From contig NZ_QZMT01000004.1 of NCBI RefSeq assembly GCF_003932495.1, forward strand, positions 186,001 through 250,000: a stretch of 64,000 bases of DNA, in the 5' to 3' direction. The notes beneath the pieces are model-generated. The model ran no database searches. It worked only from the letters and a program-made list of their open reading frames with translations, and had not been told where the DNA came from. The translations under genes were made by a program, and so were the position numbers. Origin of the DNA: Guyparkeria sp. SCN-R1 (GTDB lineage Bacteria > Pseudomonadota > Gammaproteobacteria > Halothiobacillales > Halothiobacillaceae). Below are positions 28,615 through 37,884 of the stretch, in pieces (the first letter of the stretch is position 1; each line of letters begins with the position of its first letter).

Positions 28615-29460
28615 TTAGGAGAAGAACGCGCTGACGGCCGAGTCGAGGGTATCGCGCATGTCCGGGTCGTCGGTGATCGGACGGACCAGGGTCATCGAGC
28701 AGGCATCGCGCGGGTCGACGCCCTTGGCGATCAGCTGGCCTGCGTAGACAAGTAGGCGGGTGGAGATACCCTCGTCCAGGCCGTGGCCCTTGAGGTTGCG
28801 CGCCCGCTGGGCGATTTCGACCAGCTTGCCGGCGGTGTCGCGGTCGACGCCGGTCTCGTGGGCGAGGATTTCGGTTTCGGTCTCCGGGTCCGGGTAGTCG
28901 AAGTCCAGCGCACCGAAACGCTGCTTGGTCGACTGCTTCAGGTCCTTCATCAGGTTCTGGTAGCCCGGGTTGTAGGAGATGACGATCTGGAAGTCGGGAT
29001 GCGCCTCCACGAGCTCGCCCTTCTTCTCCAGCGGCAGGACGCGACGGTGGTCGGTCAGCGGGTGGATGACGACGGTGGTGTCCTGGCGGGCCTCGACGAT
29101 CTCGTCGAGGTAGCAGATGGCGCCAATGCGGGCCGCCGTGGTCAGCGGGCCGTCCTGCCAGCGGGTGCCGTCCTTGTCGAGCAGGTAGCGGCCGACCAGG
29201 TCGGAGGCGGTCATGTCCTCGTTACAGGCCACGCTGATCAGCGGACGCTGCAGCTTCCAGGCCATGTACTCGACGAAGCGGGTCTTGCCCGAGCCGGTCG
29301 GGCCCTTGAGCATCATCGGCATGCGGGCCTTGTAGGCGGCCTCGTAGAGATTGACCTCGTCGTGGACCGTCCGGTAGTACGGCTCGGTCTTGATGCGGTA
29401 TTCGTCGGCGTTCGCGTTGCTGTCGCTGGTGCCGCTCTGGGGGGATTGATCAAACAGCAT
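28615..29460 (-). CDS. cbbQ: Rubisco activase ATPase subunit CbbQ (MoxR-type AAA+)
   Basis: 281 residues. Walker A is [15 protein letters not shown] (about 53-60), Walker B is [11 protein letters not shown], and the MoxR/NirQ/CbbQ pattern continues with [32 protein letters not shown] and [12 protein letters not shown]. CbbQ forms a hexamer that, with the CbbO adaptor, removes inhibitory sugar phosphates from Rubisco by ATP-driven remodelling. cbbO lies upstream in the same run, separated by the DAB genes. This is the last gene before the cluster terminator. Confidence 0.95.
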
Positions 29461-29522: not shown

Positions 29523-29849
29523 TCAGCCCTTGAACTTAACCAGTCGGCTGACCTGGATGTCGGAAACGAAGACCACGCCGCTGTGCTTGTCGAAAAACGG
29601 GGCGAAGCCCTCGAGCAGCGGCTCGACCAGTTCTTCCGGGACCGCGGCGATGATCATGATGAGCACCTCGTCCTCGTTGAACATCAGGTGGCCTTCGTGG
29701 AAGCCCTGGCTGCCCTTGCCGGACAGGTTGCCGACGATGGTGTAGCCCTTGACGTCGGCGCGGTCGAGGAGATCGGTGGCGAATTCCTGATGCTCGCCCT
29801 CGATGATGATCTCGAGCTTCTTCAGCGGGTTGAGTTTGAGATTGCTCAT
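29523..29849 (-). CDS. PII-like signalling protein of the carboxysome/bicarbonate-transport type
   Basis: 108 residues. The fold pattern is PII-like: [38 protein letters not shown] (T-loop position) and [19 protein letters not shown] with a final [13 protein letters not shown]. The T-loop lacks the uridylylated Tyr of GlnB. Related PII-like proteins beside alpha-carboxysome and bicarbonate transporter genes (CPII/SbtB-like) bind adenine nucleotides and bicarbonate. Its ATG overlaps the dabA stop by four bases, which argues for control of DabAB activity or a role in sensing carbon or energy state; this is inference. Confidence 0.85.
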
Positions 29850-32800
29850 GCAGGGCTCTCCTCTGCGTCAATGGATTCCAGTTGCTTGGCCCGCTGGGGT
29901 GCCGGTCCCAGGTCGTGCCATTCGCCGCGATCGAAGAAGTGCAGGTGGCCGCTCTCGGGGTCGGCGACCACCACGTTGATCCAGCCGTTGACGATCAGGC
30001 TCAGTGCCTTGGGCACCCGGCCGGCGGCGGCCAGCACGTGCGGTACCGGCGCCTCGACGATCACCAGCAGGCGCAACGGTTCGTGGTACGGGCGGCCGTC
30101 CTTGAGCACCGTCTGCGAGGGCAGGCCGGTACGGATGTCGGACAGGTTGCCCGTCATCACGCCGAAGCGGCCGGCGACGTTGTGGTAGGCCTTGGAGCCG
30201 CTGCCGAAGCCCTCGTTGTCGACGGCGGAGAAGTAGTGCTCGAGGTTGATCCACTCGCCGATGATCAACGGGCCGGAGAGGATGGTATCCAGCAGGCGGC
30301 CCTTGGTGTCGAGCTTGTAGTCGTATGACAGTAGGAAGCTGCGCCCGTCGAGGTTCATGTCCTCGGTCAGGTGGCGGCCGCCGACGACCACCGCGGCGTT
30401 GCGCGCCAGGCCCCACTCGGGGCGTACCTGGGTCCAGTCGCTGGTGTTGCGCTGGATGTGGCGGTACGCCGTGGTGGTGTCGAGGTTCGGGTCGACGCCT
30501 TCCTCCAGCGTCGGCAGGCGTTCGGCGGCGCACAGGCGGCTGGCCGCGCGCAGACCGTTGCGCAGGCGCTCCATGTAGACCAGGTGGCTGGTCGGCAGCA
30601 GGTCCAGGTCGTGGAGGACGATCTCGTCCGAGGTGGTGTTGTGCTGCGCCGGGACGAACCAGGTGTCATCCGGGATGTGGATGCCCTGTTCGGCCAGCCG
30701 ACGACGCACCTCCGACTTGTTGGCCATCTGCGCGAGCACGCGCGCTGAGACCAGGCCGTGGCCGCCACCGCAGGCGCCGCAATCCAGCGCGGACTCGTAG
30801 GGGTTGTTGTCCGACTCGCTGGCGTGGCCGGCGAGGATGACGAAACGCGAGAAGGTTTCCTTCATGCCCATCATCCGCAACGCCTGGCCGACGAAGTAGA
30901 CCTGTTCGTCGGTGGAAAACCCGATCTTGCCCAGGCGCTCCATCTGCATGGAGACGAATGACGGGTTGATGCGGTATTCGTCGCGCAGCGTCTCGATGAA
31001 ATCGGCCTCGGCAGCGGGGCTCAAGGCGAACTGGCGGGCGAATTCCGAGGTGCCCTCCTTGTTGCCCATCGCGATCTCGCGCAGCTCGCGGATCATCGAG
31101 TCGGTGATCGCGTCGCGGTCGATGCCGAGCTCCTGGCCGATGGCGCGCACGATCGTCACCCGCTGCAACGAGCGGACGATCGAGTCCCCCTGTTCGCGTG
31201 AGAGCTTGTCGATCAGCAGACGGGTCGAGGCGTCCTTGGGCTCGATGCGATTGCGCCAGCGGTCGTAGACGCGCGGTGCGACGGTCTTGCCGATCATGTC
31301 GAAGCCGAACAGCAGGCCGATGGCCTCGACGGTGAAGTAGGGCGAGAGCACCGAGCTCTTCACGTCGTGCAGAACGTGGCTGGCCGAGGAGTAGAAATCG
31401 GTCTCGATCTGCGTCGCGCCGGTGGGCACTTCCAGCACCACGTTCTTGGGCGTGATCTGTACCGGGCAGAGGTCGAGCTCGGTGCCCTTGCCCAGGCCGA
31501 TGAAGCTGACCGGCACGCCGAAGAAGCCGGCGATGCCGAAGGTCTGGTAGTCGCCGACGTGCTCGAGCTGGCGACGGATGCGCTCGGAACGCACGTCGAT
31601 GCAGAACAGCGCCTGGGCGAACGGGCGCTTTTCGCGCTTGGCCGGTGGCAGCAGCTTGATCTCGTTGAGGACCGACTTGCGGTAGACCGCCTCCATGGCG
31701 CGCAGCCACATCATGCCTTCGCCATCCTCGAACTCGTCGAGCAGGGTGAGAAGGGCGTCGGTCTGGTCGGCGTCCAGTGCCTTGAGCGCCTCGGTCTGCC
31801 CGGCGGCCTCGGCCAGCGAAAGCAGTCGGTCGGCCTGTCGGCGCGTCTCGGCGATGCGCTCGGCCTGCAGGTACTCGGGCAGCAGGCGGTTGATGCGGCC
31901 GGGGTGCTTGTGTGCCAGGGCGTCGTCGACGCGGTGGGCCCATTCCGGCTGGACGGTGCCGCCGTGGTAGGCCTGGCGCAGGTAGCACTCGGCGGTGTGT
32001 TGCTCGAGGTAGTGTGACAGCTCGGGGAAGGTGGCGGGCAGGCGTTTGCGACGGGCATGCTCGCGGATCAGCGCCAGCCCCAGCACCAGCCGGATGGCCA
32101 GGAAGTCGATCAGGTCGCCGGGATAGGTCTGCGACCAGTGGTAGCGCTTGGCCGACGAGCGCCAGCGGATGAAGCCGGCCCAGCCGTGCAGGCGCGTCAG
32201 CTCGCGGGTAATCAGCCCGTCCCAGTGCGCCTCCTCGATACCCAGTTCACCCAGCACGTAGGCGATCACGCCCTCGGCGGACGCGTCCTGGGCGAGGATC
32301 TTCTTGATGTGCAGGCCGCGCAGGAACAGGCGCAGGTTGCGCTTGGCCAGCGCGCTCCAGGCGGTGAAGAAGCCGTGCTCGCGGCCCGGCATCTGCAGGG
32401 TGGACTGGCCCTCGTCGAAGAAGTCCAGGCAGCTCTTGATCACCAGCTCGTCGAGGGTCGTGCCGATCTCGGTGCCGAACAGGAGGTCGATCGATTCGTA
32501 CAGGGGCCGCTCGGGCGGGAACTGCCTGGCAAGTCGCTCGTGCAAGGCGTCGATGTCGGCGGTTTCCTCGGCGCAGGAGGTCCCGCCGTCGATGGCGCAC
32601 TTGATGTCGTCGGCATCGGCCAGGTCCAGCCGCACGCCAACCGTTTCCGGGGTGCGGCACAGCAGGGTCTGCAGCAGGCCCTGGAGGTCGAGTTCGCCGA
32701 TGGCATCACGCTCGGCCAGGAAGCGTCGGATGTCGTCGCCGAGCGTGGCGTCGTCGACCTTGCCCTCGGCATGATAGCGCTGGTAGTCGGTTCGTGGCAG

Positions 32801-32986
32801 GAAGCCCCGGCCGTGGAACAGCTGCTCGCCCTGGCGCACGCCCTGCTCGAAGGGCAGGTGCTCGAGGCCGTGCAGCGGGTTGTGGTGGATGAAGGTCCGC
32901 ATCGGCCAGAAGAACGGGATCGGTTCGGCGGCCATGTGAACCATGGAGCGGATTTTCAGGCGATGGCCCAGCGTCAGTCGGCTCAT
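29846..32986 (-). CDS. dabA: Inorganic-carbon pump subunit DabA (DUF2309/UPF0753)
   Basis: 1046 residues, a long-type DabA. Zinc-site residues match the beta-carbonic-anhydrase-like set known from Halothiobacillus DabA: Cys462 and Asp464 in LFCIDVRSE, His721 in ILAGHASESDNNPY, and Cys736 in ALDCGACGGGHG; the His-to-Cys spacing of 15 is as in the characterised protein. DabA is peripheral and works with the membrane subunit DabB, coupling CO2 hydration to an ion gradient so that bicarbonate accumulates. ATG 32986 is four bases from the preceding membrane gene's stop, and its end overlaps the PII-like gene. Confidence 0.95.
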   Translation of the reverse strand: MSRLTLGHRLKIRSMVHMAAEPIPFFWPMRTFIHHNPLHGLEHLPFEQGVRQGEQLFHGRGFLPRTDYQRYHAEGKVDDATLGDDIRRFLAERDAIGELDLQGLLQTLLCRTPETVGVRLDLADADDIKCAIDGGTSCAEETADIDALHERLARQFPPERPLYESIDLLFGTEIGTTLDELVIKSCLDFFDEGQSTLQMPGREHGFFTAWSALAKRNLRLFLRGLHIKKILAQDASAEGVIAYVLGELGIEEAHWDGLITRELTRLHGWAGFIRWRSSAKRYHWSQTYPGDLIDFLAIRLVLGLALIREHARRKRLPATFPELSHYLEQHTAECYLRQAYHGGTVQPEWAHRVDDALAHKHPGRINRLLPEYLQAERIAETRRQADRLLSLAEAAGQTEALKALDADQTDALLTLLDEFEDGEGMMWLRAMEAVYRKSVLNEIKLLPPAKREKRPFAQALFCIDVRSERIRRQLEHVGDYQTFGIAGFFGVPVSFIGLGKGTELDLCPVQITPKNVVLEVPTGATQIETDFYSSASHVLHDVKSSVLSPYFTVEAIGLLFGFDMIGKTVAPRVYDRWRNRIEPKDASTRLLIDKLSREQGDSIVRSLQRVTIVRAIGQELGIDRDAITDSMIRELREIAMGNKEGTSEFARQFALSPAAEADFIETLRDEYRINPSFVSMQMERLGKIGFSTDEQVYFVGQALRMMGMKETFSRFVILAGHASESDNNPYESALDCGACGGGHGLVSARVLAQMANKSEVRRRLAEQGIHIPDDTWFVPAQHNTTSDEIVLHDLDLLPTSHLVYMERLRNGLRAASRLCAAERLPTLEEGVDPNLDTTTAYRHIQRNTSDWTQVRPEWGLARNAAVVVGGRHLTEDMNLDGRSFLLSYDYKLDTKGRLLDTILSGPLIIGEWINLEHYFSAVDNEGFGSGSKAYHNVAGRFGVMTGNLSDIRTGLPSQTVLKDGRPYHEPLRLLVIVEAPVPHVLAAAGRVPKALSLIVNGWINVVVADPESGHLHFFDRGEWHDLGPAPQRAKQLESIDAEESPA

Positions 32987-32990
32987 GGCG

Positions 32991-33737
32991 TCAGACTCCT
33001 GTCCAGATCAGGTTCAACACGACCGCGGCGACGATCACGCCCGCGAAGGCCCAGGCCAGGGGGACGGGCAGGTCGGCGACGTTCTTGCCGCTACGCGGAC
33101 CGAAGACGGTGTCCCGCAGCAGACGGGTGCCGGCCCAGCTCCACAGCAGCCAGGTCAACAGCGCCACGATCACCGGCGCGGGGTGGCTTTCGAGCAGCAG
33201 GTCGAGCATGACGAAGAAGCCGGGCGAAATCGGCAGTGCCATTGCGGCGAGCAGCACCACCGTGATCAGGCCGGCGAGCCGGGGGATGTCCCGTGCCATG
33301 CCGGTGACCAGGCCGGAATAGGCCGCGCCCAGGCGGCGCTCCAGCAGCGTGGTGATCACTACCAGCAGGGCCGGTGCGACGGCAAAGCCGAGCACGAAGG
33401 CATGCAGGTCGATTGCCCGCGCGCCGTCGGCCGCCATCACCCAGGTCAGCGCGAAGGCCGAAGTGGCCAGCATGGCCGCCCACTGGCCCAGCTCGCGCAC
33501 GGTGAGCAGGCGCCAGGCGTAGAAGGCGGCGGTGATCAGGCCCCACCAGAGGAAGACGCTTCCGGTCAGCGGCACGCCGGCGGCCAGCACCAGCAGCACG
33601 CCGATCTGCGGCCAGACGAGGATCAGCAGCACGCGAACCACGGGGTTGTTGAACCGCCCGAGCAGCCAGTTGAAGGCCATGCTCAGGGGGAACAGGGGCA
33701 GGAAGAACCCTGCCAGCAACAGCAACAGCGTGTTCAT
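32991..33737 (-). CDS. Membrane protein of unknown function within the DAB operon
   Basis: 248 residues, nearly all hydrophobic: I count about seven membrane helices, starting at residue 2 (LLLLLAGFFLPLFPLSMA) and ending LAWAFAGVIVAAVVLNLIW. No known catalytic or transport motif is seen; a short loop with FGPRSGKNVADLPVP lies before the last helix. The gene is enclosed by dabB (ending one base upstream) and dabA (four bases downstream), so it is almost surely co-translated with them and may be a third membrane subunit or assembly factor of this DAB complex. That role is inferred from position alone. Confidence 0.75.
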   Translation of the reverse strand: MNTLLLLLAGFFLPLFPLSMAFNWLLGRFNNPVVRVLLILVWPQIGVLLVLAAGVPLTGSVFLWWGLITAAFYAWRLLTVRELGQWAAMLATSAFALTWVMAADGARAIDLHAFVLGFAVAPALLVVITTLLERRLGAAYSGLVTGMARDIPRLAGLITVVLLAAMALPISPGFFVMLDLLLESHPAPVIVALLTWLLWSWAGTRLLRDTVFGPRSGKNVADLPVPLAWAFAGVIVAAVVLNLIWTGV

Positions 33738-33738
33738 G

Positions 33739-35421
33739 TCAGCGCCACCTCATCCAGACATTGATGCGCTTGGAGCCCTCGAGCAGGGCCTGGCTCAGCC
33801 GCTCGTACAGGTCGGCGATGTACAGCTCGCGCGAGATCAGGGAGTAGAGCGTGAGCCGCAGTTCGGAGAAGCGGTTGCCGAACAGCGATTCCTCGCGGCT
33901 GGCGAGATAGCTGCCGATCCAGCCGACCAGCACGACCAGGCCCAGCAGGATGACCAGCCCGTCGAAGGTCACCGCATCGAGGCCCGCGGCGTGATACAGC
34001 GCCTCGCGGAAGGCCGCATCCGGGTAGAGGAAGGTCTCGAAGGTGTGACCGATGATGCTGTAACCGATCACGATCAGGGCGAACGAGAGCAGGATCATCA
34101 GCATCATGCGCACCGGGTTGGTCGCATCCAGCCGGTGGGTGGCGAACAGCACCTGCACGCCGGTGATCCAGCCGAAGAACAAGAGCACGATCGCGCCCTG
34201 TTTCTGGAAGAAGTCCGGCGAGACCGCCCAGTGCGCCAGCAGGAGGATGGCCAGCGGAACGACGAGGGTCACCACGCCGATGGCGAGCCACGGTAGCCGC
34301 GTCGGCTTGCCGGTCTTGCGATCGACGAGGAAGGTGTACAGCGGGTTTTGCGGCACGTCGTCGTGGCGGCGCGCATCACCGATCAGGTCACCCGAGCTCA
34401 GGAACATGGTCGCCTTGAACATGCCGTGGGCGATCAGGTGGAACACGGCCAGCGAAAACGCCCCGACGCCCGTTTCCATGATCATGAAGCCCATCTGGCC
34501 CATGGTGGAGTAGCCCAGCGACTTCTTGATGTCGTTCTGCGTGAGCATCAGCACCGAGCCGATCACGGCGGTGAGCAGGCCGACCACGAACAGCAGGTGC
34601 AGCACCCCCTCGGCATTGACGAAGGCCGGGGCGAAGCGGTTGATGATGATGCCGCCGGCGTTGACGATGCCCGCGTGCATCAGCGCCGAGACCGGGGTCG
34701 GGCCGTCCATGGTGTAGGGCAGCCAGGTGTGCAGCGGGAACTGGGCGGACTTGGCGAAGGCCGAGACGGCGATCAGCCCGGCCGCGGTGATCGCCGCCGG
34801 CATGCCGAACACCTCGGTGTCCGGGGCGGCCATCAGCCGGTCGAACAACGTCGGGAAGTCCAGCGCCCCGTAGGCCTGGAACAGGATCACGGCCGCGAGC
34901 ACCATCGGCAGGTCGCCGATACGGTAGGTCAGGAAGGTCCAGAAGGCATAGCGCTCGCCCGGCCGCGATTCGGTGTTCTGGCCGAGCAGGAAGTACATCA
35001 TCACGCTGACCAGGTGCCAGGCGATCAGCAGGGTGATGAGGTCACCGGCCGTGACGAACAGCAGGATGGATGCCGTCATCAGGTCGAGCAGCATGAAGAA
35101 GCGCGCGTAGCCCGGCTCCTCGGCCATGTAGCGCACCGAGTAGATGTGCACGATCAAACTAAAGCCGGAGACGACCAGCGCCATGGTGGCGCTCAGGGGG
35201 TCGAGGTAGACGCTGCCCCAGTTGCCGCCGATGCCCATCCAGCTCGGGCCCTGGTTGCTCGTGATGAAGACCACGATCTGCCAGAGGGCGACGAGGAAAG
35301 TGATCACCCCCATGCCCACGCTCAACTGGGCGACCCGCCTGCCGAGGCGACCGGCCAGCAGGTGCACCAGCAGGGCGGAGAGCACCGGCAATAAAGGGAT
35401 CAACCATTGCAGTTTGATCAT
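33739..35421 (-). CDS. dabB: Inorganic-carbon pump membrane subunit DabB (NuoL/MrpA-like)
   Basis: 560 residues with the multi-helix antiporter-like fold of Complex I subunit NuoL: LITLLIAWHLVSVMMYFLLG, ISAFAKSAQFPLHTWLP-type segment (here VSAFAKSAQFPLHTWLP), TPVSALMHAGIVNAGG, NDIKKSLGYSTMGQMGFM and HLIAHGMFKATMFLSSG, each with the Lys and His residues of the ion channel. Beside dabA it forms the DAB carbon pump in the cytoplasmic membrane. It begins the DAB part of the cluster, after a gap of 111 bases from cbbO. It is not part of a respiratory Complex I locus. Confidence 0.93.
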   Translation of the reverse strand: MIKLQWLIPLLPVLSALLVHLLAGRLGRRVAQLSVGMGVITFLVALWQIVVFITSNQGPSWMGIGGNWGSVYLDPLSATMALVVSGFSLIVHIYSVRYMAEEPGYARFFMLLDLMTASILLFVTAGDLITLLIAWHLVSVMMYFLLGQNTESRPGERYAFWTFLTYRIGDLPMVLAAVILFQAYGALDFPTLFDRLMAAPDTEVFGMPAAITAAGLIAVSAFAKSAQFPLHTWLPYTMDGPTPVSALMHAGIVNAGGIIINRFAPAFVNAEGVLHLLFVVGLLTAVIGSVLMLTQNDIKKSLGYSTMGQMGFMIMETGVGAFSLAVFHLIAHGMFKATMFLSSGDLIGDARRHDDVPQNPLYTFLVDRKTGKPTRLPWLAIGVVTLVVPLAILLLAHWAVSPDFFQKQGAIVLLFFGWITGVQVLFATHRLDATNPVRMMLMILLSFALIVIGYSIIGHTFETFLYPDAAFREALYHAAGLDAVTFDGLVILLGLVVLVGWIGSYLASREESLFGNRFSELRLTLYSLISRELYIADLYERLSQALLEGSKRINVWMRWR

Positions 35422-35532: not shown

Positions 35533-37884
35533 TCAGCGGGTCATCGACAGGTACAGCGCCGGCAGCTTTTCCGGCAGCCGCGAGACGTGGTCGAGCACCA
35601 TGAAGTTCTTCGGGCCGAACACGCGCGAGACGTACTCGTCGGCGTTGGGGTCGAGGGTGACGCAGAAGGTCTCGACGCCCTGGCGATGCAGCTCCTCGAC
35701 CGCCTTCTTGGTGTCGTGGCGCAGGTACTGCGGATCGCGAACATCGTTGTCCGAGGGCTCGCCGTCGGAAAGCAGCAGCACGAGCTTGCGCTGGCTGGGC
35801 CGCTGGCGCATCACGGCGCCCGCGTGACGCAGCGCCGCGCCCATGCGCGTGGACAGCTGCCCGGTCATGCCGGCCAGGCGCGCCTTGGCCTTGTCGGCAT
35901 ACGGCTCGCCGAAGTCCTTGAAGCGGTAGTACTCGACGTCGTGGCGGCCGTTGGAATCAAAGCCGTGGATCGCGAACGGATCACCTACCCGGTTGATCGC
36001 GTCGGCCAGGAGGGTGGCCGCCTCGCGCGACAGGTCCAGCACCGTGGTCTCGTCGTCGCCGCGGCCGATGGCATCGTTGGTCGACTCGGACAGGTCGATC
36101 AACAGCATCACCGACAGATCGCGGACCTGCAGCCGGGTGCGGATACCGATGCGCGGATCGGGCGTCTGACCCATGCGGATGTCGATCATCGCGTTGACCG
36201 CCGCGTTGAGATCGATCTGGTCGCCGTCCTCGACCTTCTTCTCGCGCACCACGCCCTGCGGCTGGATGCCCTCAATCAGGTACTTCAGACGCCGGACCAG
36301 CGGTTTGTGACGCTCGAGGATCGCGTCGATGGCTTCGGGGTCGCCGTCGACCGGGCGCTTCTCGTTGATCGTGGTCCAGAACGGGCGCTCGAGCTGGGAC
36401 ATGTAGTCCCACTCGTGGTAGTGCACCGGCGATAGGGTGCGGTCCTCGGCGAAGATGTCCGAGTACTTGCGACCGTGGTTGTCGTAGAGCTCGGTGCCCA
36501 GCACCCAGATCTCGTCGGCGTCCTCGGCGGAGATGTACTCGACGTCCAGCGAGTTGAGCATCTCCAGCAGCGAGACGTAGCGACGCTTGTCGTCGACGCT
36601 GCCCTGCTGCTGGACCTCGAAGGCCGACTCCGGCTTCTCGAACAGGAAGCGGTTGTCGTCGCGGTAGGGGATGCTGGGCACGTCCTGGCTGGGGCTGAAG
36701 TGCAGGCCCATCTGCTCGGAACGATCGGCCAGTGCCAAGCCGGCCTGGCGGACCCGCTCGTAGTCCTCGAGATCCTCGCGGATGGAGCTCACCGCCTCGC
36801 GTGCCTGGGCGATCAGCGGGTGATCGTCGGCGTAGTTCGGGTCGAGCAGGGCGAGGGCGATGCGGTCGAGCAGCGGACCCACGCGCTCGGAATCGGTTTC
36901 CTCGTGGCGATTGACCGCGATGCGCGCGATGCGCGTCCACAACGGTGCCAGCCCGGGGAAGTCCTTGCCGGCCAGGGTTTCAACGCGCGCGTCCTCCATC
37001 AGGCCGATGAAGGTCTGCTGGAGCTTGGTGGCCTCTTCCGACTCGGCATCGAAGCCCGAGTAGATCATGTGTGCCGCGGCGTGGGCGGCCGAGGCGCGGT
37101 AGAGGTTGACGCCATCGACGGAGGAATCATCGCGGTCGACGTAGTCGTCGAAGGCATCGGGCAGGTTGATGAACGGCCCCTCGATGAACGGGCGGTAGCC
37201 CTGGCGGCTTTCGAAGTCGCCCGAGGTGGGACGCAGCAGGAAGTTGCGCGCCCACAGGGCACGCAGGTACATCACCAGGCGGCGCTGGACGTCGACGAAC
37301 AGGGTGCCGCGGCGCTCTTTCTGCAGGACGGCGTCGGCATCGGCACTCGCCAGGCTGAAGTAGGCGTCCAGCGCCTCGAAGTCGTTGCGGTGGGCATTGA
37401 TGCCCCAGGTGGCCCAGCGTCGCAGGCCGCCCAGGGTAAGCACCTCGAGCAGGTGGTCGAGCTGCGTGAGCATGGGGCGCAGGGCGCGCGGTGCCTGCGC
37501 CAGAATGTAGTTGACCAGTGACAGGTACTGCTGGAACAGAGAGGCCTCGCCCAGGCGGCTCGCCGCCACCGGAGCGGTGGAGAACAGCAGGACGAGGACC
37601 GCGGCACTGGTCTTGGAGAACATCTTTATCGACATCGAGAGCAACTCGAAGGCGGCATCGGTGCCAAGCTCCCGTGCCACCTGGGGAGTGCTCTCGATAT
37701 AGGCGAGGACCAGTTCCTCGCCACGTCCAAGCGATTGCAGGCTGATCGCACCCTCGAGATAGGCTTCGAGGGCACGCGGCGGGAAGACCCGCGAGGCGTC
37801 CACCCAGTGGATCTCGAGGATCTCGCGCGCGGATTCGCCCAGTTCGTCCAGGCGCTCCTGGTCTTCTAGCCGTGCACTCGTCAT
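35533..37884 (-). CDS. cbbO: Rubisco activase adaptor CbbO (von Willebrand factor A domain)
   Basis: 783 residues. The C-terminal 200 residues are a vWA domain: LSVMLLIDLSESTND carries the metal-ion-dependent adhesion site, KLVLLLSDGEPSDND is a later conserved strand, and VETFCVTLDPNADEYV follows. The N-terminal and central parts are helical and match CbbO proteins (GPFINLPDAFDDYVDRDD, GLMEDARVE). CbbO binds Rubisco through the vWA domain and links it to the CbbQ ATPase. It follows mcdB with a 70-base gap, and here the DAB genes lie between it and cbbQ. Confidence 0.94.
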   Translation of the reverse strand: MTSARLEDQERLDELGESAREILEIHWVDASRVFPPRALEAYLEGAISLQSLGRGEELVLAYIESTPQVARELGTDAAFELLSMSIKMFSKTSAAVLVLLFSTAPVAASRLGEASLFQQYLSLVNYILAQAPRALRPMLTQLDHLLEVLTLGGLRRWATWGINAHRNDFEALDAYFSLASADADAVLQKERRGTLFVDVQRRLVMYLRALWARNFLLRPTSGDFESRQGYRPFIEGPFINLPDAFDDYVDRDDSSVDGVNLYRASAAHAAAHMIYSGFDAESEEATKLQQTFIGLMEDARVETLAGKDFPGLAPLWTRIARIAVNRHEETDSERVGPLLDRIALALLDPNYADDHPLIAQAREAVSSIREDLEDYERVRQAGLALADRSEQMGLHFSPSQDVPSIPYRDDNRFLFEKPESAFEVQQQGSVDDKRRYVSLLEMLNSLDVEYISAEDADEIWVLGTELYDNHGRKYSDIFAEDRTLSPVHYHEWDYMSQLERPFWTTINEKRPVDGDPEAIDAILERHKPLVRRLKYLIEGIQPQGVVREKKVEDGDQIDLNAAVNAMIDIRMGQTPDPRIGIRTRLQVRDLSVMLLIDLSESTNDAIGRGDDETTVLDLSREAATLLADAINRVGDPFAIHGFDSNGRHDVEYYRFKDFGEPYADKAKARLAGMTGQLSTRMGAALRHAGAVMRQRPSQRKLVLLLSDGEPSDNDVRDPQYLRHDTKKAVEELHRQGVETFCVTLDPNADEYVSRVFGPKNFMVLDHVSRLPEKLPALYLSMTR

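Follow-up and report, generated by a model that had tools for sequence, protein, structure and literature searches.

A truncated NuoM-type half-antiporter encoded by the third gene of long-type DAB operons

We analysed a 64,000-nucleotide stretch of the Guyparkeria sp. SCN-R1 genome (contig NZ_QZMT01000004.1, positions 186,001 to 250,000; hereafter the window), in which a small open reading frame lies between the pump genes dabB and dabA. The genes around it are, in window coordinates:

28615..29460, minus strand: cbbQ, rubisco activase AAA+ subunit (PF08406, PF07728)
29523..29849, minus strand: PII-like protein gene (PF00543, 1.7e-21), its start overlapping the end of dabA
29846..32986, minus strand: dabA, long type, 1046 aa (PF10070, E 2.3e-247), with Glu554 aligned to the finger Glu444 of DabA2
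32991..33737, minus strand: X, a truncated NuoM-type half-antiporter of 248 aa, third gene of a long-type (DAB1-type) DAB operon (from ORF, fold and homology)
33739..35421, minus strand: dabB, NuoL-like membrane subunit of 560 aa (PF00361, PF00662; Halothiobacillus neapolitanus DabB2, 9rd0_B, E 3.3e-43)
35533..37884, minus strand: cbbO-like VWA protein (VWA domains), placed as in the H. neapolitanus locus described in PMC4633670
38314..38952, minus strand: ParA-family ATPase, McdA-like (NF041546, above its cut-off)

The X frame is present exactly where an earlier note on this DNA had placed it, one base from dabB and four from dabA, and the almost fully hydrophobic character ascribed to it there is borne out by a GRAVY of +1.19, with a single lysine and three glutamates. 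Its nearest named relative, from Guyparkeria hydrothermalis, is 98% identical. The contig also carries the gene for the carboxysomal carbonic anhydrase CsoSCA, at a distance of about 7.7 kb, and the dab operon of the window is the carboxysome-side operon.

An AF2 model of X built from 66 sequences (pLDDT 91.9, pTM 0.90) has eight membrane segments instead of the seven helices counted previously: 3–12/19–28, 32–53, 61–79, 83–96/98–103, 108–136, 152–165/172–183, 186–210 and 225–245. The first and sixth are broken helices, with the breaks at prolines. In fold, X corresponds to a NuoM-type antiporter-like subunit from about TM7b to TM14, its C-terminal half; the N-terminal half is missing. Residues 1–248 superpose on residues 223–485 of Escherichia coli NuoM (3rko_C) with Z 24.2 and 2.2 Å over 245 aligned positions (VIA-align), and equally well on NdhD of NDH-1MS (6tjv_D, Z 24.2). 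X thus lacks the full set of two inverted five-helix repeats with both half-channels that PF00361-type proteins have, only NuoM 223–485 being represented. At E<=1e-3 Foldseek returned 58 matches in the PDB, of which the 50 listed are all antiporter-like subunits, namely ND4/NuoM/NdhD and ND5/NuoL of complex I, Mrp, formate hydrogenlyase and related proteins. NuoL chains score similarly to NuoM, such that structure alone does not choose between the two.

Sequence comparison does favour NuoM. The NCBIfam NuoM model matches X 121–241 (3.4e-5), and when 388 genomes of the phylum were scanned with an X profile, the only strong match was in the window's own genome and, of the best matches outside the family, all 29 classified proved to be NuoM (by comparison with E. 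coli NuoL, NuoM and NuoN, for just the 29 best that had loci). These 29 span approximately X 53 to 243, two of them starting at X 10–12, and follow the C-terminal half of NuoM collinearly. Hence X is an N-terminally truncated NuoM-type protein. X matched no Pfam family at E<=1, PF00361 included, and the profile, run against PDB sequences, gave nothing beyond a chance match (E 1.2). Below the X family, the scan of the class yielded three weak matches in open frames of 493, 503 and 957 aa, of which the first immediately precedes a dabA.

The protonatable residues of PF00361 antiporter-like subunits are a TM7 lysine, a TM8 lysine, a histidine and a TM12 lysine or glutamate. We take K234, H241, K265, H322, H348 and E407 to be the proton-path positions of E. 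coli NuoM. In a joint alignment, X of the window carries F12, S19, V41, A94, F118 and M177 at these positions, with W42 next to V41 where K265 aligns. The replacements recur across the family: K234 has become phenylalanine in 64 of 66 sequences and H241 serine in 59 of 66, the H322 position holds histidine in 0/66, and that of E407 is methionine (42) or leucine (22) in 64/66. With these residues lost, X should not carry protons itself. Structural positions of NuoM are kept (P14, P17, P152, R153, P169, F174, G213 and D222), and among 14 residues invariant in the 66 sequences Arg76, Trp86, Trp99, Trp199 and Trp201 are new relative to NuoM. X therefore shares with NuoM, ND4 and NdhD of complex I and NDH-1 the C-terminal-half fold, both broken helices and these structural positions, but differs in having no N-terminal half, in the replacement of the proton-path Lys, His and Glu and in its new invariant Trp and Arg.

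The distribution of X follows that of one type of DabA. DabA is present in 83 of 369 genomes of the class, and each of the 36 strong X matches in these 369 genomes lies directly upstream of a dabA. We counted 84 full-length dabA genes, leaving partial matches out. X stands beside 35 of the 53 long ones (span of at least 2,700 nt) and beside 0/31 short ones, this last figure resting on the class profile scan since an ORF set with a floor of 300 aa is not usable for X; the 36th X adjoins a dabA truncated at the edge of its contig. The co-occurrence with long-type DabA that the earlier note had proposed as a check is therefore found. CsoSCA is encoded in 33 of the 36 X genomes (the exceptions being G069, G074 and G209), in 0/18 long-type genomes without X and in 5/29 other DabA genomes, counts that refer to species and not to independent events. 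Separately, PF10070 finds no match in 30 of the 68 class genomes that encode CsoSCA, so the carboxysomes there are probably supplied by a different system for inorganic-carbon uptake.

A pattern scan blind to neighbouring genes recovered 65 named loci in Halothiobacillus, Thioalkalivibrio, Nitrococcus, Nitrosomonas eutropha, Thiomonas, Sulfuriferula, Thiohalobacter and others. All 65 are ordered DabB–X–DabA, some being cut by contig ends, and an intact homologue is kept in every one; the frame is more than a chance ORF. With starts taken mechanically, DabB and X are spaced by exactly 1 nt in 41/65 loci, and X and DabA overlap by 4 nt in 27/65. The PII gene adjoins dabA in most of the 65. In Nitrosomonas eutropha Nm 57 a single dabB–X pair is followed by dabA and the PII gene twice in tandem.

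The position of X is not new. Hneap_0908 of H. neapolitanus likewise lies between dabB1 and dabA1 in the carboxysome-side operon, a correspondence drawn from position and not from its own sequence. It is described as the uncharacterised small third protein of a 'three-subunit' DAB1 (PMC13144422) and as a putative transmembrane hypothetical protein (PMC4633670); PMC7714395 reports its co-expression with dabAB1 and the rescue of CAfree, so that X was present in a working construct. Our search of the open-access literature found no description of Hneap_0908 beyond these labels and none of X as a NuoM half, and the available passages of two reviews (PMC12918739, PMC8438413) mention DabA and DabB only. 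The PF00361 label given to Hneap_0908 was not reproduced for X of the window, which has no Pfam match at the threshold used and whose nearest kin is NuoM. X is thus ordinary in its place and unusual in its make-up: a gene published as uncharacterised encodes a channel-dead NuoM half, specific to a mostly carboxysome-linked long-type DAB.

In the long-type loci without X, the same slot is often filled by a larger relative. A full-length NuoM-like gene (M1, 486–524 aa) lies just upstream of dabA in 11 of these 18 loci, and the end of an M1 is visible at the contig edge in one more; the remaining six (L077, L078, L079, L080, L093 and L094) showed no NuoM-like gene upstream of dabA. In M1 loci dabB comes after dabA, often with another NuoM-like gene. 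X matches M1 over the C-terminal half of the latter (hhalign E 6.5e-6), and all 11 M1 outscore, against the X profile, the NuoM proteins of both E. coli and the window's own genome. A tree of C-terminal halves did not place X among the antiporter families (branch 4.5) and neither rejected nor showed an X+M1 clade (p-AU 0.24); its rerun left out antisense ORFs taken as NuoM (L212, L214, L217 and L231), a NuoN (L213) and the long branches MrpD_own and X_L186. A full-length NuoM-like partner, still encoded in the X slot of other long-type loci, was probably ancestral.

Among these loci, L081–L092 (for example L084:1-7524; L087 is cut by a contig end) carry a full-length NuoM-like gene, dabA, dabB and often more NuoM-like genes. 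The antiporter subunits so encoded make up a complex-I-like set around a DabA, and the genomes concerned lack CsoSCA. In L077 (G051) several small hydrophobic ORFs after a 950-aa DabA resemble Mrp antiporter subunits by look, a possible DabA–Mrp hybrid operon. The DabA open frame of L078 (G162:C1:558463-561525) reaches 1,610 aa with about 500 extra N-terminal residues, which may stem from a start called too far upstream or from a genuine fusion.

In DAB2, a transmembrane finger of DabA with Glu444 substitutes for the NuoL TM12 charges, according to PMC13144422. The corresponding E554 is kept in DabA of the window, and the finger glutamate is present in 26/26 sampled X-type DabA (of 60) and 19/19 sampled short-type DabA (26 loci fetched, of 31 full-length) but in 0/14 sampled long-type DabA without X (of 18). 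We had considered X as a replacement for the finger, and dropped this because X-type DabA keeps its glutamate. DabB of the window keeps the proton-path residues that were checked (K299, S305, H328, H332 and K336). Hence protons probably move through DAB1 in the way they do in DAB2, with X as an extra. DAB2 (DabA2–DabB2; PDB 9rd0, 9rd8 and 9rd9) thus resembles the pump of the window in its homologous DabA and DabB and its finger glutamate, but has two subunits only and a short DabA, the type beside which X is absent.

Four N-terminal DabA inserts are common to X-type and other long-type proteins and absent from short DabA. A further 70-aa insert right after the transmembrane finger (residues 603–672, window 30971–31180) is mostly confined to the X type (short DabA lacks it, as do most DabA of the other long type) and is a candidate contact site for X. 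In DabB, the residue at the position of NuoL E144 is glutamate in 11/11 proteins beside a full NuoM-like gene, His, Tyr, Asn or Gln in 54/59 from X loci (the window and 58 of 61 usable DabB from the 65 loci) and Ile, Leu, Val, Phe or Met in 24/26 of the two-subunit type without X. Since the X type and the two-subunit type are told apart by 53 of 287 DabB columns, this pattern is suggestive only and may be clade history. Covariation between X and DabB (57 loci, Neff 36) gave top pairs on a few clade-marking columns and no docking signal, and the AF2 model of DabB was weak (pLDDT 73.8) and given no weight.

The earlier note had left it between a third subunit, an assembly factor and a regulator. 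A third subunit fits the restriction to long-type loci, the position between dabB and dabA and the near-zero spacing. We consider it reasonably likely that X is a dedicated, non-conducting third subunit of the carboxysome-linked long-DabA DAB pump, bracing DabB–DabA from beside DabB. The NuoM half retained in X is, in complex I, the half that meets NuoL. By this analogy, from which we infer both docking and function, X would abut the N-terminal half of DabB within the membrane, brace DabB–DabA and tune their coupling, with protons passing via DabB and the transmembrane finger (Glu554) of DabA. As a NuoM-type half without proton-carrying residues, X is probably a fixed third part of the pump and not a separate pump. 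The NuoL ion-pair face lies near the subunit interface of complex I, according to PMC13144422. Against this reading, two-subunit DABs such as DAB2 work without X, and the DabB face is assigned to X by analogy.

X could instead complete DabB in trans, supplying the second half-channel (the TM9–13 bundle) so that DabB and X form a split antiporter. X is the matching antiporter half, and DabB2 is reported in PMC13144422 to have no bundle equal to NuoL TM9–13. Yet every proton-path residue checked is gone from X, the DabA finger glutamate that does this job in DAB2 is kept in all X-type DabA sampled, X is closer to NuoM than to NuoL and DabB, at 560 aa, has C-terminal helices of its own (in the weak model); we regard a split antiporter as unlikely. 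A role in assembly or stability, or in regulation (through the neighbouring PII protein, for example), would make X something other than a permanent subunit. The same paper reports DAB2 as unstable and prone to dissociation, which would suit such a role, as would the PII gene after dabA in most X loci and the loss of the proton path. A stoichiometric subunit is favoured both by the strict order and near-zero spacing across the 65 loci and by the origin of X from a protein packed next to NuoL, and we think an accessory factor of this kind rather improbable. That X is a decaying, now functionless relic of a lost NuoM-like subunit would account for the missing half and the missing functional residues, but X is intact in 65/65 pattern loci (a scan that could miss broken copies) and in all 36 strong genome matches, and its 14 invariant residues include several that are new; decay is very improbable.

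Cyanobacterial NDH-1MS (NdhD3, NdhF3, CupA) places a CO2-hydrating protein on a NuoL-like and NuoM-like pair. X superposes on its NdhD, as described above, but is half a NuoM without a proton path, and no complex I core genes were seen in the dab operon. We tentatively suggest, as a possibility short of an even chance, that long-type DABs are complex-I-like CO2 pumps, in which an ancestral DabA sat on a row of antiporter subunits (a NuoM-like protein, the NuoL-like DabB and further NuoM-like proteins) of the kind that some lineages encode to this day. The carboxysome lineage would then have shifted the proton path to DabB and the DabA finger, keeping the interface half of NuoM, X, as a dead brace or gate, and DABs and NDH-1MS would be parallel solutions drawn from a NuoL–NuoM pair.

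Engineering discussions treat DABs as 'two-protein' CO2 pumps, and the three solved DAB structures that we found (those cited above) are all of two-subunit DAB2. If a NuoM-derived third subunit is indeed part of the carboxysome-linked pump, a new structure is needed to understand its coupling and stability, minimal DAB1 constructs should retain the X gene, and DABs join the superfamily of complex I, Mrp and NDH-1MS more closely than a view based on DabB alone suggests. The genome of the window also encodes a second DAB (L001/L095, G000 contig C6), a short-type, two-gene system resembling H. neapolitanus DAB2.
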